From Sergeia podlipaevii (taxonomy: Eukaryota; Euglenozoa; Kinetoplastea; Trypanosomatida; Trypanosomatidae), in assembly GCA_030849805.1 (NCBI GenBank), contig JASANZ010002274.1, forward strand, positions 1 through 64,000: a stretch of DNA of 64,000 nt, in the 5' to 3' direction. The notes beneath the pieces were generated by a model. That model did no database searches. It saw nothing but the letters and a program-made list of their open reading frames with translations, and was not told where the DNA came from. Each line of letters opens with the position of its first letter. The stretch's first letter is position 1. The position numbers were made by a program, and so were the translations under genes. This document shows positions 15,701 through 63,795 of this stretch, in pieces.

Positions 15701-18700
15701 TACTGCCGGCGAGTAGAGAGGAAGGCAAGAGCATTAAGAAGCGCTATGCTGTCTTCAATCCAGATGGTAAGTTGGCTGAGCTCAAGGGTTTTGAGCTGAA
15801 GAGACGTGGTGAGCTCATGCTCATTAAGGACTTTCAGTCACAGGTGTTTAGGCGCTTTCTCGATGGTACAACGCTTCTGGAGTCCTATGCATCGGCAGCT
15901 GTGGTGGCAAATGCCGCGCTGGACATGCTAGAATCAAAGGGTGCCGGCTTCGACACGGAGGAAATACTGGAGAAGATTACCGAAAGCAGCAACATGTCAC
16001 GTAAGCTTTCGGAATACCCCGAGGCTCAGAAGTCTCTTGCAATTACAACTGCGAGACGCATTGCAGAGTTTCTGGGGCCACAGATGGTCAAGGACAAAGG
16101 GCTTGCGTGCCACTTCATCATCTCCAGGTTACCCGCCGGGCGTCCCGTGACAGAGCGCGCCATCCCCACAGTCATCTTCCGCGCAGAGCCGGCGGTACGC
16201 GTGCACTTCATGCGCAAGTGGACAGGGGACACGTCGATCACCGCAGATTGTGATCTCAAAACGGTGCTCGACTGGGACTACTACACCGCGCGCTTTAACG
16301 CCTGTGTTCAGAAGATCATTACAATTCCGGCTGCGCTGCAGTCGGTGCCTAACCCTGTGCCTCGTGTGGCACACCCGGAGTGGCTGCACAAGCGCGTGCA
16401 GCAGCAGAACTCGCGGTTCCGTCAGGTCACTCTTGCGGGAATGCTGAATAACAGCAAGAAAAGGCAGGAGGGGGAGGAGGAAGGGGAGGAAGAAGGCGCT
16501 GACGTGGTGGAGGTGACGAGCGGTCTACTACCTCGCGTAGAGTTGCAGGATATTGAATCTCTTGCTGATCCTTTTCAAAATCAGAAGCAGCATCACGAGG
16601 CGCATAGGAAGGTTGGGAGTCTCAAGGACAAGTTACACAAGGATAAGGAAACAGAGCTCATAGACCCGGAAGAGGTAGATGGCGATGAGGATGATGGCAT
16701 AAGTGTGCAATCCGATGACGATGTGGCACGTGCACAGCGTGAGGCAGAGGCAGAGCAAGAGGAGCGCGTTCACGCGCTCACACAAGCCTATTTTACACCA
16801 AAAAGCACAAGAACAATTGATAACGCTTTCTTCTGCGATGCAGCTGCACGCCCGTGGCTGTCGGCTCAGAGGCAAGCGTGGCTACACCGTGCGCGATTGA
16901 GAAAGGAGCTGGCTACTTCAATGAATGCAGCTGGCAAGGGAGGCCATGACGCACGAGCAGCTAGAGGGGCGGGAAAACTGACGGACGGACTGTCTGCTGG
17001 AATGGAGACCCTCGACGCCCACTTTATCGATGTGAAGAGTCGTGCTCTGTCTACGACGTGGAATATTCTGGAGACGCGGCTGAGTGCGCTTGAGGACCCT
17101 GGTGTCGTGACGGTGCTTGCAGCCCTGGACGGCGCGCTACACACCTTCCGCGTTCGCGTTCCACGACGAATTCTCGTGGATGCTGACCCTGGCACCAAAC
17201 TGGACGTAGTAGCGGCAAATACAGTGGAGGTGGCAGGCCGTATCTTGCCCCGCCACATCCACAGCGGACGACTCTACCAGGTCGAAGTACCCCCAGGCTC
17301 TGAAGGAGAGCTACTCCTCAACAACTTGTCCATAACAGAAGGGGTAAGGGAGCTGTATGAGACGCACATTACGCTAGAGGAGCGCTGTGTGGAGGCGCTT
17401 GGGTGCAGAGCGACGGTGAACACGCAGCTCTATCTGAAGAACTCTCGGCTCCGTCTTGGTCAAGCAAGTGATCTCTTTGAGCTCGACGAACTCGTCTCCT
17501 GCGGTAGCGGTGGTGGTGCCAACTACCTCACAAAATCATCCGATCGCTCTGCTTTTATATTCCATGCCGTCGCCGATACGCGTGGTGTGGTGGCGCTTAT
17601 CAACGTGCAAACCAGCGCCGCGACGGTGGTTTTTATTCAGCCCGCTGGTGCACAGCGGCCGACTAACATCAACTGGACAACTCTCAGTGAGGAAGCTGCC
17701 AAGATGCTTCACGCTGCGCCAGTCAAGCTGGATGTGAAGATAACCATCGTGACGGACCAGGCTGCTGCGTGGCGCGTTGTTCAGGCAGCACTGCTGGACG
17801 CAAGTGAAGGTGGGCCGTCTGGCTTACGTGGCCCACTGTTGGCGGTACTCCAGAGCGCCACCCCTACGGAGGAATTGCTCAAACAACGTTTCATTCCAGC
17901 TACCCTGCCGTATCTTTGCGTTCTTGGTGCTGTTGAGGATGAGAAACTCTTTGCAGATCCGTTCTTCTGGGCCCGTCTCCTTGCGCGGCGTCTGCTGCAG
18001 CGATACTACGCGTCCGTGCTGTGGGTGGAGGAGCGACTTGCGCTGAGCCGCATCGCTGGTATCCCTGTATGCAACCTCGCACAGGACAGCTGTGCGCACG
18101 CTCTCGATGTGCTGTACAGTCGATCTCTGCACCGCCACTCGCACGTGCTGTGGCGCAGCTCTGATCCGGCCATTGCATTTGACGCTGTCGATGAGCGACC
18201 GCGGGATGTTGTAATGCCGGGTGGTTACACGTCGTGGTGTGTGGAGTTCAGTCTTTCTCGCCTCGACGTAGTTGCTGTTCTCTTCTCGCAGGTCATTCAA
18301 GAAGGGGATGATCCGAGTTCGCACATTCTGTGCGACCGTGGCGTATCCACACACTTTAACATTCTGCGTGACCTTATCGCTGACCTTCTCGGCCAAGCCG
18401 TCCACAGCAGTGTCGCGGATCTGCTCCTCACAAATGTGGCACGCTGGCTACGTGATCCTGTGTCCGCGAGCTATGAGCCCCGCATTGTCGAAATGCTGAG
18501 TGGGTTGGCCCATCGCGCTCTTACTTCTATTCTTATCCGTCTTGCCAAACTAGGCGGACGTACTGTCAAGGTAGACGCCAGCTCTGTGGTGGTCCTCACT
18601 TCCAAGCACTCCTTACCTGAGGCCGTCAGCTTTGGCCGCTTTGTGACGAGCTCTGTGCAGGACCAGCCCATGCTCATCTTGCTTGCTCTCCAGCCTGCCC

Positions 18701-53936: not shown

Positions 53937-56423
53937 ATGCTATCAGTACTGCGTCCGCAGAGGACACCAAAGTTCTCAGTGGAAAACGCCCTGTCACTAT
54001 GCAAAGCTTTAGAACAACTTGAAGAAAACGGTGGGACCCTGCCCGCCTCCGTCAGGCGAAACGATGACAATTTCATCACCGTTTTCCGCGAACTCGCAGA
54101 GGTGATGGTGTGGGGTGACAAGCATGAAGAGATGATTTTTGATCGTGTGCTAGAGCGCGACGTTATGTCAACGCTAGAACGACTGGTAACCAACGCACAA
54201 GTGCCTTCGATAGTGAAGGCGCAGGTGTTCCAGTGTGTTACGATGCTCCTTCAGCATCTCACCCGGGCCTCCTCCGTGTACGTGCTCTGCAGCAACCATC
54301 ACATCAACCGCATGATAGCGAGCGAGTTAGATCCCAACGATGAGGAACTCGTTGCGGTGCACATCTCCTTCCTCAAGACGCTTGCTCTGCGTCTTGACGA
54401 CAACACAGTTCAGTTCTTTTTTGAGAGCGAGACCGGTGCGTTTCCCCTTTTTGACAAGGCTGTAAAACTGCTAAGTGTATCAGACTCCATGGTGCGCACT
54501 GCAGCACGTCAAGTGGTTGTTAGTGTCGCGCAGCTCACGGATGACGGTGTTGCGGCATTTCTTTCTGTCTCGCTCTCAGACGTATTCACAGTAGTGGCGC
54601 GCTCTGTCGCAGATCACGTCGCCTCGCTTGAGAAACTAGTAACGGTGGCGATGGCAGGTGGGGAAGCTGCCATGGAGCCAACGACGTTTGCGCGGGCGTT
54701 CAGCAATTGCCTTGAAGACGCCGTTGACGACCTGTACTATATCAACGATCTTTGTGAATGCCCGCAGAAAGGTGCCGAAGCACAGCTGCTAGCATGCTTA
54801 GAAAAGGACGTTTTATTGCCAATGCGCGCGTCGATTGAAGCAGCAGAGGATAATAATAATAATAATAATAATGTATGCGGCGGAAGGAAAAGCGAGCTAT
54901 CCTGTGCCACTGTCCAGATTTCTGCTGCTGCGGTGGCGTTAGCCTTCCTCGCACGCTGGATGCTTGTGAATGACGTGAGTGCGTTGCGGGAGCTGGTGAT
55001 TCAAGACTATGTCTGCCAAAGTGGCGCTGTCGGTGATGTAACCGCGCAAACGCCATCAGTTGGTGCACCTGAGCATGGTGTCCTGCTTCGTATTTTTGAA
55101 CGGCCACATCTTGCCAATTACAGTGGCGCTTTGCTACTCATGATGGCATTATTGAAAGAGGATGTCGAGACAGTGGTGCTGAATGAAGATCAAGAGGACG
55201 CTGATGATGCTGGTGACGCGTATGGTGAAGAAGACCATATCGCGCACGTTATGACTACTGCTGCAACTTTCACTGCGGAAGACTTTTTCAATGAGGGCAT
55301 TCCAAGTACGCTTCTCCAGGAACTGCCGTCGGACGCGGTAGGGCAAGCAAAGCGAAAAGCACTGGGTTCACTTGTGGCTGCGCTATACCACCAGGTAAAG
55401 GCTCCTGCGCAGTGCTCCATTGATTATCTCCATTTAACCATGGTTCTGCTTCACACGCTTCTTTCGCAAGCCGTGCGACCTGGCTGCAAGCGTCACGCCT
55501 GGCGCCACTTTCTTGGATGCGCGTTGAATGTATCAAGCAAGCGCGTCCGCCTCGTTGAAGCGTTGTATGAAGATGGTAGAGACGGCTGCTCTTCTTCTTC
55601 TTGCCCTTCCGCAGAGTGGCGTCACGCATTGAATCGCCTGTGTGAGCCACTGTCTTCGTACGAGGCAGCCTTTCTGCGGCTCCGTCTTGCAGCTCGTCAG
55701 TTTCGGGCTTTACCACCGCACCTCATTTCGTTGCAGCACACGCCGGCGGCGAAAAATGTGATGTCCTTTTTGCCTACCTTTTGCTCTCTCTCTGGCACGG
55801 AGTCCCTCGCTTGGGAGCACACCGTGTGGAGACTGCTTGGGGCACCACGAACCTTGACGGATCGCACCGCTCTCACCGCTACTGAGACGGAGACCGTTAC
55901 ATGCTTGACATGGCTTTTGCTAATGCGACTCAGCGGCAGGGACCTTGGTGGCGTGCATGAAGCCGCTCTTGCTGGGCCGCTGTCGATCTTGGGGGAGAAA
56001 ATTTCTGCTCACTCTACTACGGCATACTGGCGCTGTGAAGTAGTCCGTGTGTCCTATGCGGATGCTGCAAGGCATCCGTTGGTAGCGCCAGGTACCCCCG
56101 CATGCATCGCTCTCACGCTAACTAGAGAAGTGGTGCTTTGCACTCCAGCTAACAATGTTGATCGCGGTACTTCTCTCGGTACTATTTTTGTTTCACTGGA
56201 TGCTGTGTTTGTTTATGCCCTGCAACACTCTAAGTATCCTTTTAAGGTGCAGCTGCGCTTCTGTGAACCTGGCCACCGAGCCACGTATTGGATCACACTG
56301 AGAGACGCTGATGCTGCCAGGTGTGTGACCGATACCGTGAACTCTCTAGCTCGCGAGACGAGGCAGCAAGGAGCATCGTTGTGCCGACTCTTACTTGAAG
56401 AAGGCAAAACGTGCACAACGTGA
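53937..56423 (+). CDS. CLEC16A/GOP-1-like protein with FPL domain
   Basis: Product of 828 residues. Residues about 45-195 read as the FPL domain of the CLEC16A family: FRELAEVMVWGDKHEEMIFD, then a run of helices including LQHLTRASSVYVLCSNHHINRMI and VAVHISFLKTLALRLDDNTVQFFF, ending FPLFDKAVKLL. The rest is armadillo-like helical repeat with low-complexity breaks, including seven consecutive Asn (about residues 305-311) encoded by an AAT microsatellite. The C-terminal 110 residues have beta strands (VQLRFCEPGHRATYWITLRDADAARCVTD) resembling a PH-like end. CLEC16A proteins act on endosomal and autophagic membranes, regulating endosome maturation and mitophagy. Assignment is strong for the FPL part, weaker for the rest. 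Confidence 0.87.
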   Translation: MLSVLRPQRTPKFSVENALSLCKALEQLEENGGTLPASVRRNDDNFITVFRELAEVMVWGDKHEEMIFDRVLERDVMSTLERLVTNAQVPSIVKAQVFQCVTMLLQHLTRASSVYVLCSNHHINRMIASELDPNDEELVAVHISFLKTLALRLDDNTVQFFFESETGAFPLFDKAVKLLSVSDSMVRTAARQVVVSVAQLTDDGVAAFLSVSLSDVFTVVARSVADHVASLEKLVTVAMAGGEAAMEPTTFARAFSNCLEDAVDDLYYINDLCECPQKGAEAQLLACLEKDVLLPMRASIEAAEDNNNNNNNVCGGRKSELSCATVQISAAAVALAFLARWMLVNDVSALRELVIQDYVCQSGAVGDVTAQTPSVGAPEHGVLLRIFERPHLANYSGALLLMMALLKEDVETVVLNEDQEDADDAGDAYGEEDHIAHVMTTAATFTAEDFFNEGIPSTLLQELPSDAVGQAKRKALGSLVAALYHQVKAPAQCSIDYLHLTMVLLHTLLSQAVRPGCKRHAWRHFLGCALNVSSKRVRLVEALYEDGRDGCSSSSCPSAEWRHALNRLCEPLSSYEAAFLRLRLAARQFRALPPHLISLQHTPAAKNVMSFLPTFCSLSGTESLAWEHTVWRLLGAPRTLTDRTALTATETETVTCLTWLLLMRLSGRDLGGVHEAALAGPLSILGEKISAHSTTAYWRCEVVRVSYADAARHPLVAPGTPACIALTLTREVVLCTPANNVDRGTSLGTIFVSLDAVFVYALQHSKYPFKVQLRFCEPGHRATYWITLRDADAARCVTDTVNSLARETRQQGASLCRLLLEEGKTCTT

Positions 56424-57112: not shown

Positions 57113-60100
57113 ATGATGAAGTCAACATCAGTAATGCAGGTGGGGGACATCGTCTGCCCCCTTCCTCGTACCTTCAACGTCGTCGGCGAGAACGTGCTAC
57201 TCCCTGGGGGTGAAAAGATCCGTCACAATGACACGTTCAATGTGACCATCATCAGCCACTTCCTCGTCGCCGTCAAGCCGATCGCTGTGGATGAAGAGAT
57301 TGTGCTGAACCTCAACCTCGCCTTCTACGACATGATCAAGACTCCCGATACGATCAGCTCCTTCGAAAACCCCGCCGCCTCCGGTTTCCGCTACCTCACC
57401 GAAGAGGAAAAGCAGCAGCTGTATCTTTTTGCAGATGAGGATGTGCGCCAGGCTGCCATCACGGACGGATTTGTGCCCAAGGGGAAGGAAGGCGGCATCA
57501 ACGTTAAACGCACCAAGCACGACACACTCGCCGCTGTCTCCTCGCGTGACCACCCAGCCGGCGCAGTGGTGTTCACCGCCACTGGTGTTCTTCTGCCCTT
57601 CCCCGTGCGCAGCACCATCGAGGTGCCGGGTGACCGCCACTTGCGTCTTACTGGTGGCTCTCAGTTCCTTCTCCACTCGTGCCTGCCGAATCTGCGACTG
57701 GAGATTGTCGGCAACGAGATTCGCGGCGTCGCCCTACGCCCTATTGAGGAAGGCGAGCGCCTCACCTACAATTACCTCTGCACGGAGTGGGAGGTGTCGA
57801 AGGTGTTCCACTGCTCCTGCAACAAATACTGCTGCTACGGCCTCATTCGCGGCTTCAGGGTATTGGAGCGTGAGCAGCAGGAACATCTCTTGCCTCAGTG
57901 CAGCGCGGCTGTACAGGAGAAGTTTCATGCCTACGCCGCTACCACCGCAGTCACGCAGGGCGGTGGCGCAACGTTGCCGAGCATCACCGCAGCTGGCGAC
58001 ACTGCAGCCCTCTCTACCGCCGGTGCGACAGGGGATCTGGTTGCGCAGCGATACATTCAGGCTGGCACCGTGCTGCTCACCGCCTCGCATCCTGCGCGCG
58101 TGGAGGTGGACACGCAAACCGCTGTCTGTTCCGAGAGAGGTCTCTCATCACGGTGTTTGGTGATTGGCTCTGTGCGCCTCCCTCATGCATGCGACGCGAA
58201 CACAGCACTCGTGGAAGGCCGTCTCGTCTCCACTCGTCCCCTGCTATCTGGCGATGTGCTCACGTTCAACCTGAACCTTTTAGCCCACCACTACCCTGGC
58301 GGCCCGTGGCCCTGTACGTGCGGATGCACAGACTGCCCCGGTACTGTGGAAGGATTCGGCAGTCTCACCCACGCAGCGCGAGAAGCCCTGTGGCACTTGG
58401 CCTCGCCAGAGGCCAGGGCGGGTGCGCTTGCCGCAGGTCACGCACTTGGATGCTGCTGTCCCTCTGTTGAGGTGCGCGAGACCGCGGTGATGGGCCACAC
58501 AACGTACGCCACTGCTCCCATCGCCACCAGTACTCGCATTTTTCACATGAAGGGACTTGTGCTACCATTTCCGACCGTCTACACGATCTATCTTGGCGAG
58601 GATCGTCACCTGCTCTTTGCAGGTGGGGCTCAGTGCCTTGCACACTGCTGCAACCCAAACACTCGCATTGTCACCAATCCTGTCAGCGGCAGTTTTGACT
58701 GCATTGCGTTACGCAACATTGCCGCTGATGAGGTGGTGAGCTTCAACTACCTGACGACGGAGTGGGACATGGACTCGCCTTTTCGTTGTGCCTGTGGCGG
58801 CGCCAAGGGCAGCGAAGGCCAAAGTTCGTGCTTCAAGTGCATTGCTGGTTTCCGTCATCTCAGTCGTCAGGATCAGCTGCGGCTCTGGCCCAGCGCCACG
58901 CAGGCAATCCGCTCCTTGTTTGCTCACTCGAGCAACACCGCCGTGGAGAGTGTCTTGGCAAGGCTGGACGCTGATCTGGTGGCGCCAGAGGGCTCGCGGG
59001 GTGAGCTATGCATTCAGCGCGACCTTCCCTCTGGCACCGTAATTCTCACCACCCCGCAGCGACACCAGCTGCGCGAAGGTGGGCGGGCCATCGTCCTAGG
59101 TGATGTTACCGTCTGGCACGAGTGCGAGGCCTCGGCAGTTCTCTTGGAGGGCCGCCTGGTGCTTTGCCGCGCAGCCACTGCTGGTACACGAGTTACAATA
59201 AACGTGTGCCAACTGGCTTACCGCTTGGAAGGCACCGGCTTCGAGTGTGACTGTGGAGCCGCGACTTGCATCAAGACGGTTGGCGGCTTTTCAGAACTCA
59301 CGGAGTCTCAGCAGGATGCTCTGCTTCTCTGCACTGCCCCTGACGTGCGAGCCGAGGCCGTCTCCACAGTGGCTGGTGGCGCAGGCTACAAGAACAAGAG
59401 CTGCTGCCACATGGTAGAGGTAAAGGCGAATGGCTCAATGGGGCAGGCCACCTTTGCGGCCCAGTGCATCCCTGCTGGCACTCGCTTCTTCCGTGTGACC
59501 GGACTCGTGCTTTCTTTTCCTACTGTGTACACGATTTTGCTTGAGCCTGGTCGTCACTTGCTCTTTGCCGGCGGTGCGCAGTGCCTCGCCCACAGCTGTG
59601 AGCCCAACGTCCGTGTGATTGTGGATGCGGAAAGTCGTGCCATTGACTGCCTCGCGCTGCGCGATATCACCCCTGGCGAAGTCATCAGTTTCAACTACCT
59701 GACGACGGAGTGGGACATGAGCGCGCCATTCAAGTGTGTCTGCGGTTCCGCGCGCTGCTTTGGCAAGATCAGTGGGTTCAAGCACCTCTCCAACTGGAGC
59801 AGGCAGCTGCTGTGGCAACAGGCCGCTCCAGGCATTCGCCTCTTGGCGCATGAAGATGTCAACAGGAACAACTGGCGCCGTCTTGCGTCCCCGCAACTAC
59901 GGACAGACAACCAAGGTCACGTGCTTGCCGCGCGAGAGCTGCATGAGGGGCAGCCGGTGCTTGATGCAGTGCGGGTGGAGCTTCTTCGCGATGATGATCT
60001 ACTGACGAACGCAACGGCAGTGTTGGTGGATGGTGTGCGGCTGCGTCACAGCTGCCGCCCCACCGCTGCCATCATCGAAAATCACGTGGTGCTTGTGCAG

Positions 60101-61639
60101 ACTGTCTGCTCTGGTGAAGAGATCAGCGTTGATGTCAACTGCCTTCGCTACAAGTTGGACACGCCATTTACATGCACGTGTGTTGCGCAGCCACAGGGGC
60201 ACATTGTGTCCGGCTTTGTTGGTCTCTCTAATGAGCTCAAGGCTGCCCGAGTCATCTACACCGACCCCTCGGTACGCGCTGCAGCCCTGCGCGACGGTTT
60301 CAAGGTGCCATGCCCTTCTCCAGTCGTGGGTGTGCGCGCCAACGGTGAGATGGGACAGGCGACGTTTGCCAAAACCGGTATCTCCGCAGGCACGCGATTT
60401 CTCCGTGTAAAGGGCCTCAGCATCCCCTTTCCCACCGTGTACACGATCATGCTCACTGAGCGCCGCCACCTTCTCTTTGCCGATGGAGCCCAGTGCCTTG
60501 CGCACAGTTGCGACCCAAATGTACTTATCTGTGTCGATGCAGTCAACAACACGCTTGAGTGCGAGGCGTTGCGCGACATCGCTGCTGGCGAGCTTATCGC
60601 TTTCAACTACAACACCACGGAGTGGGACATGAGCGCACCTTTCCGTTGCCTCTGCGGCGGTGCGGAGTGTGCCTTTGAAATTCGTGGCTTCAAGCACCTC
60701 TCACGCGACCAGCGCGAGAAGCTGCAGCCGTACACTACACCCGCCATCCGAGAACTGGCTGGTGCCTCTACCGAGGTTCACCTGCCGTCCCACCTGCTTC
60801 GAGAGGACATTGCTGGCTACCTATACTCAGTATGCGCCATCAGCTCTGAAACAATTGTCATGGAACTGTTCTACATGGATGTGCAGCCAAACCAACTCTG
60901 TGTGGGCAAGAACTACACGATCGCGCATAGCAGCACAAGCAACTGTGTGTTGGTTGAGGGCCGCATCGTCGCCTGCGCAGACATTGCTCCAGGAGAGCGC
61001 TTGACTATTAACATGAATTACTTCGTGTATGACATGGCGAAGCTGTTCCGCAGTGGCCTCGCCGATGACTGCCGTGGGTTCAAGTATATGGACGAGTCTC
61101 TCAAGCAGCGGCAGCTATATCTGTGCGAGCCAGCAGTTCGAGCTCAGGCGATGCGCGATGGATGGATTGTGAAGAGCACGCAAGACGCCCTCACGGTGCG
61201 GCCCAACGGTGATATGGGGCAGACCGCCTACGCGACATGCGACATCCCTGTTGGGACACGTCTCTTCCACTGCACGGGGCTCGTTGTGCCCTTCCCAACC
61301 ATGTACACCATTTGCGTAGGAGATCGCAAGCATCTTCTCTTTGGTGATGCCGCTGAATGCATTGCTCATCACTGCGACCCCAATGTGCGTGTGATCGTGA
61401 ACGACGACGGCGCAAGTTTTGATTTTGTGACAATCAAGCCGGTGCAGATTGGCGAGATGGTGACGTTCAACTACTGCACGACAGAGTGGCACATGAACAC
61501 ACCTTTTGTGTGCCTCTGTGGCTCACCAGTGTGCGCACACACTATCCAAGGCTTCAAGCATCTAAACGATGCTCAGCGTCAGCGTCTGTGGCCCATCACT
61601 AGCGATGTGGTGAAGCAGTACTGCAACGCGGAGCAGTAA
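57113..61639 (+). CDS. Tandem SET-domain array protein (ten SET-like lobes)
   Basis: Product of 1508 residues, almost wholly repeats. Five composite units each contain a degenerate lobe (B) then a canonical SET/post-SET lobe (A). Canonical lobes carry GGAQCLAHSCEPN-type pseudoknot motifs (His188, 511, 827, 1131, 1419), a GEVISFNYLTTEWDM-type strand with the catalytic-position Tyr kept in all five, and in four of the five a post-SET zinc motif C-x-C-x4-C (first case Cys234, 236, 240) ending in GFKHLS. Degenerate lobes keep a shortened H-x-C-x-x-N and G-E/D-x-x-x-x-N-x-N but lose the Tyr. The usual Asn of N-H-S-C is Ala (Leu in unit 1), and the N-terminal G-x-G of SET is not evident. Lysine methylation is the family activity; substrate and location are unknown. 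There is no signal or membrane segment. Either a multi-active-site methyltransferase or a scaffold of pseudo-SET lobes would fit. Confidence 0.85.
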   Translation: MMKSTSVMQVGDIVCPLPRTFNVVGENVLLPGGEKIRHNDTFNVTIISHFLVAVKPIAVDEEIVLNLNLAFYDMIKTPDTISSFENPAASGFRYLTEEEKQQLYLFADEDVRQAAITDGFVPKGKEGGINVKRTKHDTLAAVSSRDHPAGAVVFTATGVLLPFPVRSTIEVPGDRHLRLTGGSQFLLHSCLPNLRLEIVGNEIRGVALRPIEEGERLTYNYLCTEWEVSKVFHCSCNKYCCYGLIRGFRVLEREQQEHLLPQCSAAVQEKFHAYAATTAVTQGGGATLPSITAAGDTAALSTAGATGDLVAQRYIQAGTVLLTASHPARVEVDTQTAVCSERGLSSRCLVIGSVRLPHACDANTALVEGRLVSTRPLLSGDVLTFNLNLLAHHYPGGPWPCTCGCTDCPGTVEGFGSLTHAAREALWHLASPEARAGALAAGHALGCCCPSVEVRETAVMGHTTYATAPIATSTRIFHMKGLVLPFPTVYTIYLGEDRHLLFAGGAQCLAHCCNPNTRIVTNPVSGSFDCIALRNIAADEVVSFNYLTTEWDMDSPFRCACGGAKGSEGQSSCFKCIAGFRHLSRQDQLRLWPSATQAIRSLFAHSSNTAVESVLARLDADLVAPEGSRGELCIQRDLPSGTVILTTPQRHQLREGGRAIVLGDVTVWHECEASAVLLEGRLVLCRAATAGTRVTINVCQLAYRLEGTGFECDCGAATCIKTVGGFSELTESQQDALLLCTAPDVRAEAVSTVAGGAGYKNKSCCHMVEVKANGSMGQATFAAQCIPAGTRFFRVTGLVLSFPTVYTILLEPGRHLLFAGGAQCLAHSCEPNVRVIVDAESRAIDCLALRDITPGEVISFNYLTTEWDMSAPFKCVCGSARCFGKISGFKHLSNWSRQLLWQQAAPGIRLLAHEDVNRNNWRRLASPQLRTDNQGHVLAARELHEGQPVLDAVRVELLRDDDLLTNATAVLVDGVRLRHSCRPTAAIIENHVVLVQTVCSGEEISVDVNCLRYKLDTPFTCTCVAQPQGHIVSGFVGLSNELKAARVIYTDPSVRAAALRDGFKVPCPSPVVGVRANGEMGQATFAKTGISAGTRFLRVKGLSIPFPTVYTIMLTERRHLLFADGAQCLAHSCDPNVLICVDAVNNTLECEALRDIAAGELIAFNYNTTEWDMSAPFRCLCGGAECAFEIRGFKHLSRDQREKLQPYTTPAIRELAGASTEVHLPSHLLREDIAGYLYSVCAISSETIVMELFYMDVQPNQLCVGKNYTIAHSSTSNCVLVEGRIVACADIAPGERLTINMNYFVYDMAKLFRSGLADDCRGFKYMDESLKQRQLYLCEPAVRAQAMRDGWIVKSTQDALTVRPNGDMGQTAYATCDIPVGTRLFHCTGLVVPFPTMYTICVGDRKHLLFGDAAECIAHHCDPNVRVIVNDDGASFDFVTIKPVQIGEMVTFNYCTTEWHMNTPFVCLCGSPVCAHTIQGFKHLNDAQRQRLWPITSDVVKQYCNAEQ
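57113..61639 (+). repeat. Five-fold B-A composite SET repeat
   Basis: Units begin at about 57113, 58031, 58964, 59873 and 60779, each of 0.86 to 0.93 kb (about 287 to 311 residues). Canonical A lobes recur at His-to-His distances of 323, 316, 304 and 288 residues. Protein identity between A lobes is high (for example AQCLAHSCEPN against AQCLAHSCDPN), while DNA identity is modest, so the duplication is old and held by selection rather than a fresh tandem expansion. A3 and A4 look most alike; A1 is the most divergent. Confidence 0.9.
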
Positions 61640-62439: not shown

Positions 62440-63795
62440 ATGCCACCAACAGATCGAACCATTACGAAGAAGAGGAAACGAGTCGAATTTGGCGGCGTTA
62501 CGATCATTTCAATCCCCGCCCGAGGCCATGAGCAGTCTATCGGGACTTACACATTTGATGAGGACACTCCCCCGTGGGCTGTGCCAATAGAGCCGCGCAC
62601 GCCACTGGATGAACTGGGCCTGCTAGGGGGTCATGCCGCGCCTTCTCAAGCGTCACCGCACACTCTCCTTGGAGGTAGCCCACAAGATATGGGAGACGAC
62701 GACTGCGCGCCATTCAGCGCTTCTCCGGACCCACAGTGCTCGCCAGCGGTGCCAACAACCCAGCGACCACGCAGCGCAACACTACTCATCGAACAGTCAT
62801 CTCGCAGCAGCAGCAGCTGCAGCCACAACGGCAGTGCCAGTGAAAGCGCCACATTAGACGACGCGACAGAAATTGCGCTGATGGTAGCAGCGAGCAAGAA
62901 CATTTTTCTCGGTAGCGATGCGTTGCAGCAGGCACCATCCCCCGCAGACATAAATGGTGGAGTTGCCACGGCACGAGTTGCGAACGTCATGAACGGTTCT
63001 GCGGCCTCGTTTGGGGCCATGAATGAAGGAGCTCACTCGCCTACAGAGTCACAATTGCGGATTGCTCTGGACGACGTCATTGGTGCTACTCCACTTTCGC
63101 AGTGCTGTCAGGGTGCCGTTACGACGGCTAGGGTAGGCTACGACGATCTTACGTCTTCGGAGCCGTCTGCAGCACGCAAGCGTCACCGTCATCCTTTGCA
63201 GGAGGCATTGCTGGGTGCGGAAAACCATGACATACACAATAGTAATGAAGAAGAAGAAGAAGAGGAAGAAGAAGGCGGTGGGGATCTCGCGGAAACTAAT
63301 CATTGCGTGAAGGCGAGACGTCTTGATCAACACGGGTCCTTTCTCCCGGTAACACGCAAGCTCGACCTCAGCAGCAGCGGCAGCAGCAGCAGTGAGCCGC
63401 TCGTCTGTGCATTTTGCAAACATCTGGCGCCAGCAGGAGATGCAAATGCGCTTGACGCCGAAGGCGTTCATTGCCATTTCGCCTGTGCTTTGTGGTGCCC
63501 AGAAGTGTACTTTGAGGCTGTGGAAGGCGAAGCAGGGGGTGGAAGTCTGCGCTGCGTCAAGGCAGCGCTGGAGCGAAGCGCGAACATCAAGTGTGCGGTG
63601 TGTCGTAAGGGAGGAGCCGCGGTGGGCTGCGTGAATCGATATTGTCAGCTTAGCTACCATGTAGTTTGTGCTGCGACAACAAACGCCCAGATAGACAGAG
63701 AAGCATTTCTGATTCGATGCCCGCGGCATGCGGTTGCTTCCAAGGATGTGCATAACGGCGCGACAATCGGGGGAGTTTCAGAAACGATTACATAG
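62440..63795 (+). CDS. Extended-PHD (ePHD) nuclear protein with N-terminal RVxF motif
   Basis: Product of 451 residues. The N-terminus is basic (ITKKRKRVEFGG): KKRKR looks like a nuclear localisation signal and RVEF (residues 14-17) matches the RVxF docking motif for protein phosphatase 1. Residues about 40-320 are Ser/Ala-rich and disordered, with a Glu run (about 268-278). The C-terminal domain (about residues 320-440) is an extended PHD finger: CAFCKHL at Cys323/Cys326, then VHCHFACALWCPEVYF, the knuckle IKCAVCRKGGAAVGC, and a final CQLSYHVVCAATTN with CPRH. This C2HC-plus-PHD order is that of ePHD modules in chromatin regulators such as JADE, BRPF and MLL, where the LWCPE-type phrase recurs. 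A histone or nucleic-acid reader role is inferred. No enzymatic domain accompanies it. Confidence 0.87.
   Translation: MPPTDRTITKKRKRVEFGGVTIISIPARGHEQSIGTYTFDEDTPPWAVPIEPRTPLDELGLLGGHAAPSQASPHTLLGGSPQDMGDDDCAPFSASPDPQCSPAVPTTQRPRSATLLIEQSSRSSSSCSHNGSASESATLDDATEIALMVAASKNIFLGSDALQQAPSPADINGGVATARVANVMNGSAASFGAMNEGAHSPTESQLRIALDDVIGATPLSQCCQGAVTTARVGYDDLTSSEPSAARKRHRHPLQEALLGAENHDIHNSNEEEEEEEEEGGGDLAETNHCVKARRLDQHGSFLPVTRKLDLSSSGSSSSEPLVCAFCKHLAPAGDANALDAEGVHCHFACALWCPEVYFEAVEGEAGGGSLRCVKAALERSANIKCAVCRKGGAAVGCVNRYCQLSYHVVCAATTNAQIDREAFLIRCPRHAVASKDVHNGATIGGVSETIT

Follow-up and report, generated by a model that had tools for sequence, protein, structure and literature searches.

Closest described SET proteins

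Histone lysine methyltransferases typically carry one SET domain per chain plus other domains. The gene considered here, at 57113..61639 on the forward strand of a 64,000-nucleotide stretch of Sergeia podlipaevii contig JASANZ010002274.1 (the window), encodes a protein made of ten SET-like lobes, arranged as five pairs in which a worn lobe (B) comes first and a better-kept lobe (A) follows. MLL, ASH1L, SETD2, NSD and EHMT share with the A lobes the SET and post-SET fold, the His-x-Cys (HxC) motif, the Tyr and the CxCx4C motif, but they differ in carrying Asn-His-x-Cys, in a wider spacing before the His (MLL1, Set2) and in sequence scores weaker than those of BurB, a bacterial enzyme.

Among solved proteins, BurB of Burkholderia thailandensis (PDB 9l4t, 9l4v) ranks first by sequence (E 2.4e-13, next 1.2e-4), by A-lobe profile (6.6e-21, next solved 2.1e-10) and by Foldseek. 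Its description reports a methionine S-methyltransferase with the product S-methylmethionine that, according to the authors, lacks any single catalytic residue, Y124F keeping more than 60% of activity and Y124A almost none; unlike the array, it has 172 residues and one lobe and forms a tetramer in solution by gel filtration (PMC12542666). BurB positions were mapped onto 26 orthologues of the array (130 A lobes, 104 of them A2-A5, and 130 B lobes). The A lobes resemble BurB in a compact SET plus post-SET, in His93, Cys95, Tyr124 and the zinc Cys, and in the gap between G63 and H93, which measures 29 residues in BurB and in 125 of the 130 A lobes (30 in five) and 47 in MLL1 and Set2; it is 16-18 in 128 of the 130 B lobes and 26-40 in single-lobe relatives (118 of 120 listed, those having that His). 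Lobes A2-A5 differ from BurB at its contacts with S-adenosylmethionine (SAM), R42, R133 and H138 each being found in 0/104 and H72 in 6/104, so that only His93 is retained, while BurB is without their Phe at positions -9 and 122. Because most of these contacts are missing, the A lobes are not classed as BurB enzymes.

Small post-SET proteins form the wider circle of relatives. The single-lobe search, which admits only proteins 0.55-1.75 times the query length, gave 282 matches, and the organism-named proteins among the 120 matches listed are bacterial or archaeal. They show about 30-50% identity, together with the NYLTTEW, GFKHL and CxCx4C motifs, which supports the bacterial part of the likeness to small post-SET proteins of bacteria, fungi and algae noted in the original prediction. 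Some bear the name 'SET domain-containing protein-lysine N-methyltransferase' in their source records. Unlike the array, they have one lobe in 121 of 129 cases (P0033-P0161; the others are BA in four, BABA in two, ABA in one and AA in one, and two of the BA calls, P0034 and P0037, are a short B tail only), and Asn precedes the His in 100/118.

The nearest protein with more than one SET in a chain that was met in the literature searched is of Chlamydomonas class IV-C, in which two SET domains stand behind SAD_SRA and PreSET, with no repeat array (PMC5725981); no SET protein built as a ten-lobe array was found in the literature searched. Trypanosoma brucei is reported to have 29 (PMC8559703) or 33 (PMC5976210) SET proteins, most of the 29 being concentrated in the cytoplasm (PMC8559703); all were uncharacterised in a 2018 paper (PMC5976210), and according to a 2025 paper TbSET27 alone had been characterised in T. 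brucei (PMC11871502). The gene number of the T. brucei orthologue of the array was looked for and not found, a guess at chromosome 9 included. LdSET29 was considered as the array gene and rejected, as it is a different gene, of about 1.16 kb, with PHD and SET (PMC11871502). The available parts of PMC7468196, PMC8544896, PMC4695855 and PMC12699882 contain nothing on the array protein. The layout is real, and the searches made turned up no description of it; the original prediction had likewise known of no described function for such an array.

A ten-lobe array in one reading frame

The gene is one intact open reading frame (ORF) of 1508 residues, with ATG at 57113, the stop at 61637-61639 and 0 internal stops, and by eye its start codon matches the orthologue starts. 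The product comprises ten homologous lobes in the order BABABABABA, with almost no residue outside them, and holds the lobe-end marker GFxx[LM] ten times. Lobe bounds were taken from motifs and profiles, because self-BLAST of the protein gave only the full-length self-match and revealed no repeats. The features are as follows, with Pfam SET expect values and, for B lobes, hhalign profile comparison probabilities against the A lobes.

57113..61639, +: whole coding sequence, BABABABABA, 1508 aa plus stop
57113..57487, +: lobe B1, aa 1-125, degenerate SET, zinc Cys lost (hhalign 94.5-97.4%; zinc set complete in 0/26 orthologues)
57488..57982, +: lobe A1, aa 126-290, HxC, Tyr and zinc kept, SAM-loop Gly and two channel aromatics mostly gone (Pfam SET 1.3e-6)
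57983..58456, +: lobe B2, aa 291-448, degenerate SET, full zinc set (hhalign 98.2-99.6%; zinc 26/26)
58457..58936, +: lobe A2, aa 449-608, SET, key residues kept (Pfam SET 0.0036, below cut-off; Tyr 26/26; SAM-loop Gly 26/26)
58937..59398, +: lobe B3, aa 609-762, degenerate SET (aa 611-748 modelled alone)
59399..59848, +: lobe A3, aa 763-912, best-kept SET together with A5 (Pfam SET 4.8e-7; 44 invariant positions in 26 orthologues)
59849..60310, +: lobe B4, aa 913-1066, degenerate SET, fourth zinc Cys gone (hhalign 96.5-98.2%)
60311..60760, +: lobe A4, aa 1067-1216, SET, key residues kept here, varies among orthologues (Pfam SET 3.1e-6)
60761..61174, +: lobe B5, aa 1217-1354, degenerate SET, zinc gone (Pfam SET 0.074; hhalign 94.4-96.8%)
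61175..61636, +: lobe A5, aa 1355-1508, best-kept SET together with A3 (Pfam SET 1.4e-6; 48 invariant positions in 26 orthologues)

The Pfam SET hidden Markov model (HMM; PF00856) matched the whole protein at 2e-38 and all five A lobes individually, with A1, A3, A4 and A5 at E 4.8e-7 to 3.1e-6, above the curated cut-off, and A2 under it. Four of the five B lobes gave no match to this model, and B5 gave the value listed. Profile comparison related every B lobe to every A lobe, all 25 pairings reaching 94.4-99.6% probability, while none of 150 column-shuffled controls exceeded 12.7%. The AlphaFold model of B3 alone had a predicted local distance difference test (pLDDT) score of 92.9 and a predicted template modelling (pTM) score of 0.85; the Foldseek matches listed for it were SET structures, and the best solved one was BurB. 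A model of eight lobes had a mean pLDDT of 85.6, with 16 of 1200 residues below 50. As judged from sequence and models together, all ten lobes are homologous, and the B lobes are worn SET lobes lacking the catalytic-type Tyr. The earlier claim of ten SET-like lobes in five B-A pairs, with almost nothing else in 1508 residues, is upheld by the per-segment HMM searches, the profile comparisons, the structure predictions and the lobe bounds, the SET fold being found in both lobe kinds.

The homologue search scored 7987 candidates sharing most words and returned 31 proteins. Of the 27 proteins that read BABABABABA, 26 supplied the A and B profiles, to which neither P0027 nor P0030 contributed, and the order in those 26 is partly by construction. 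By these profiles the 32 proteins P0001-P0032 comprise 27 BABABABABA, one BABABABA (P0030, 1147 aa), two BABABA, one BABABAB and one single SET (P0032). The same ten-lobe order is found in 26 full-length proteins of 1444-1510 aa and in one metagenomic protein, and the window protein is 45-62% identical to the 25 other full-length ones. Among the named organisms with the long form are Leishmania, Leptomonas, Lotmaria, Novymonas, Porcisia, T. cruzi, T. grayi, T. theileri, T. vivax and T. brucei equiperdum. In Bodo saltans a fragment shows the order B-A-B-A and is broken off at its end, and a 301-aa protein beginning with Met reads BA, its B lobe being weak (33 bits). Comparison of these sequences indicates that the layout is common to the trypanosomatids found and predates, at least in its first pairs, the split from Bodo. 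The orthologue and copy-number search proposed earlier yields 26 full-length orthologous arrays, including the window protein, and a gene that is single-copy as far as searched: the 23.4-Mb genome gave one array and no second frame with more than one SET match, both counts being lower bounds. Two further SET matches lie in separate frames less than 8 kb apart in that genome (G000:C475:9000-9158 and 16611-16922).

Conservation of key positions

Sequence comparison indicates that the A lobes keep the SET frame, namely His-x-Cys, the catalytic-type Tyr, the post-SET zinc and a compact SET-I; in the B lobes the Tyr is gone, together with much of SET-I. Tyr occupies the BurB Y124 position in 26/26 orthologues for A2, A3 and A5, in 25/26 for A1 and A4, and in 0/130 B lobes. 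The SAM-loop Gly is present in 26/26 for A2, A4 and A5 and in 25/26 for A3, and in 2/26 for A1, which has lost it in the other 24. The key set of Tyr, His, Cys and SAM-loop Gly is complete across A2-A5 in 24/26 orthologues, the exceptions being P0002, without the A3 Gly, and P0025, with Phe replacing Tyr in A4; in P0026 (T. vivax) the entire set is present even in A1. The four-Cys zinc set is complete in 26/26 for each A lobe and for B2, in 25/26 for B3 and in 0/26 for B1, B4 and B5, with B4 holding three of the four Cys in 26/26. Since B2-B4 hold all or most of the zinc Cys, the zinc motif does not separate A from B and was dropped as the mark of 'canonical' lobes. The original description, in which canonical zinc lobes alternate strictly with degenerate ones, is accordingly kept for the strict B-A order but not for the zinc; 'canonical' fits the A lobes in HxC, Tyr and zinc but fails for A1 at the SAM loop.

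At the putative substrate channel, positions -9 and 122 both hold Phe in 26/26 for A3 and A5, in 24/26 and 25/26 for A2, and in 17/26 and 19/26 for A4, while A1 has lost the aromatics at -9 and 72 and retains Phe or Tyr at 122 in 21/26. In the window protein, A2-A5 carry Tyr, Phe, Phe and Tyr at the sites matched to Y1067, Y1085, F1152 and Y1154, lysine-channel residues of G9a. Wear, as read from these alignments, is uneven: A1 is mostly without the SAM loop, A4 varies, and A3 and A5 retain nearly all key positions. From the lobe-by-lobe counts, A3 and A5 are, in every orthologue, the lobes predicted as most likely to work; in the window protein A2 and A4 are probable working sites, A1 is a doubtful one, and all B lobes are predicted to be dead.

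Predicted activity and alternative explanations

The reading given somewhat better than even chances is that the array is a kinetoplastid multi-site SET methyltransferase of five predicted units, each pairing a dead B lobe with the A lobe after it. Lobes A2-A5, or at least A3 and A5, would bind SAM and transfer methyl groups, giving about four usable sites, and the B lobes and A1 would have a structural role, holding or shaping the working lobes and replacing the self-association of single-lobe BurB. The pairs may have multiplied by unequal exchange within the gene and then drifted, the loss of some sites being tolerated because others remained. The favoured candidate substrate is a lysine-type amine, on a protein or oligomer with multiple target sites, because A2-A5 carry aromatics at the G9a channel positions. 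If several lobes are active, the protein would combine several methyltransferase sites and their dead partners in a single chain, retained across human and animal parasites and with a related fragment in free-living Bodo. The B lobes, A1 and A4, standing beside the better-kept A3 and A5, also offer a natural test of the change from enzyme to pseudoenzyme.

Several observations weigh against this interpretation. The Asn of the NHSC motif is found in 0/130 A lobes, Ala standing there in 93/104 of A2-A5, and the second SAM-loop glycine is mostly Ala (A2-A4) or Thr (A5). The alignment behind the G9a channel comparison, to EHMT1, covers only its C-terminal part. The packing of the whole array is uncertain, with a pTM of 0.60 in the eight-lobe model, and no characterised orthologue or study of the array protein was found in the literature on trypanosomatid or multiple-SET proteins, under T. 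brucei gene numbers or under six orthologue locus tags. The missing Asn does not exclude activity of the A lobes, since BurB has Leu at that site and is active (PMC12542666).

An improbable alternative is that the protein is a small-molecule methyltransferase, BurB-like kin still methylating an amino acid, an amine or a thioether and not protein. The closeness of BurB by sequence and by Foldseek, the shared 29-residue spacing, and the amino-acid chemistry genes next to the single-lobe gene in 5 of 15 prokaryote loci, of a kind also fused to SET in P0032, all speak for it. The almost complete absence of the BurB SAM contacts from A2-A5 and their aromatic channel, which BurB is without, argue against it, as do the other scanned neighbours (20 ORFs, 11/15 loci), which lack an amino-acid theme. 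The sole PF02574 match in the genome lies in a 1254-aa frame, a size typical of methionine synthase, and no separate S-methylmethionine user was seen. A role in an S-methylmethionine cycle was rejected, there being that one PF02574 match only and no paper on S-methylmethionine in trypanosomes in the literature searched.

It is equally unlikely, in our estimate, that the array is a non-catalytic scaffold or binding protein whose lobes are all worn SET repeats that bind partners or SAM. Such a protein would explain the wear at key sites in B1-B5 and A1, six of the ten lobes, why the NHSC Asn is gone from all A lobes and why A4 varies, and the repeat build recalls scaffold proteins; but A3 and A5 are the most conserved lobes, their Tyr, His, Phe and zinc positions being invariant in 26 orthologues from Trypanosoma to Leishmania, an invariance that a pure scaffold would not need. 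An error of gene model, assembly or repeat collapse is by far the least probable explanation. The near-identical internal stretches of P0027 and P0030 could be assembly effects, but the window gene is one open frame on one contig, and the artefact is refuted for it because independent orthologues, the 25 other full-length proteins, carry the same array in the same order.

Growth of the array

Trees were built from the lobes of 14 array proteins and from single-lobe proteins picked at even steps (24 in the first A-lobe tree, 23 in the tree without P0036); P0147 was excluded from the two later trees because of its long branch in the first. In the A-lobe tree, A1 is a single group (99/97) that takes in trypanosomatids, Bodo, P0027 and P0030, and trypanosomatid A2, A3, A4 and A5 each hold their position, with fragment lobes beside A4 and A5. 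In the B-lobe tree, B1 lobes group (92/93) and B3, B4 and B5 hold their places, while B2 lobes form no single group. In P0027 (1392 aa, JGI), A2 and A3 are near-identical, as are A4 and A5, and their B partners likewise, which could be a late pair duplication, gene conversion or an assembly effect. P0030 (1147 aa, ENA) is a mosaic in which A4 is nearest A2 and B4 nearest B3; this speaks against a pure pair unit and implies that lobes can also be exchanged singly. The B-A pair nonetheless appears the likeliest unit of growth, and the proposed multiplication of an ancestral B-A pair is supported by the position-stable lobes, the P0027 pairs and the 301-aa BA protein, with P0030 as the misfit.

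The array lobes all fell on one side, apart from the single-lobe proteins, in 26% of bootstrap trees, which does not establish a single origin for them, so entry of the array ancestor from bacteria is an inference. A bolder and rather doubtful scenario is that a bacterial-type amino-acid or amine methyltransferase entered the kinetoplastid ancestor, joined up with a dead sister lobe and gave rise by multiplication to a multi-site single-chain machine acting on a repeated substrate or metabolite. If true, no tandem SET enzyme array before it is known from the searches made.

The placement of BurB inside the A3 clade was discarded, as it appeared only in the tree with P0036, which also took in 15 translated loci; without this hybrid-looking protein BurB is a long branch of uncertain position, and therefore BurB is not put forward as either a descendant or an ancestor of the array. 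P0036 (186 aa, ENA, on a 1107-base contig) has an N-terminal half resembling an array A lobe plus B-lobe tail and a C-terminal half resembling BurB, and may be a chimera or else a natural form that connects the arrays with BurB-type enzymes.

Genomic surroundings

Around the single-lobe genes, 15 prokaryote loci were fetched, and 20 mechanically called ORFs from 11 of them were scanned. Amino-acid chemistry neighbours occur in L004, L005, L006, L010 and L012: L005 and L006 have a pyridoxal phosphate decarboxylase of the ornithine/diaminopimelate/arginine type, L004 has ATP-grasp ligases, one carrying its own SET, and L010 and L012, two closely related loci, have an AMP-binding/carrier/hexapeptide neighbour. 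The remaining neighbours, including peptide deformylase, GreA, SNase, PP-loop, integrase, AAA, lectin and others, have no theme. The SET-bearing ligase (L004:7500-9047) is D-Ala-D-Ala ligase-like, has its SET at the C-terminus and lies two ORFs downstream of the single-lobe gene. P0032 (1500 aa, bacterial, resembling nonribosomal peptide synthetases) combines AMP-binding, carrier and hexapeptide parts with an N-terminal SET whose post-SET end is GFKHL. Three relatives lie on virus contigs, none of them noted as an array (two inspected); the single-lobe SET genes L020:2078-2476 and L021:4959-5336 are each followed by a similar 97-aa ORF.

Within the window, the array gene is flanked by an upstream gene at 53937-56423 (+) with an FPL domain (E 2.4e-51) and by a downstream gene at 62440-63795 (+) with an extended PHD-like zinc finger (zf-HC5HC2H, E 1.2e-13).
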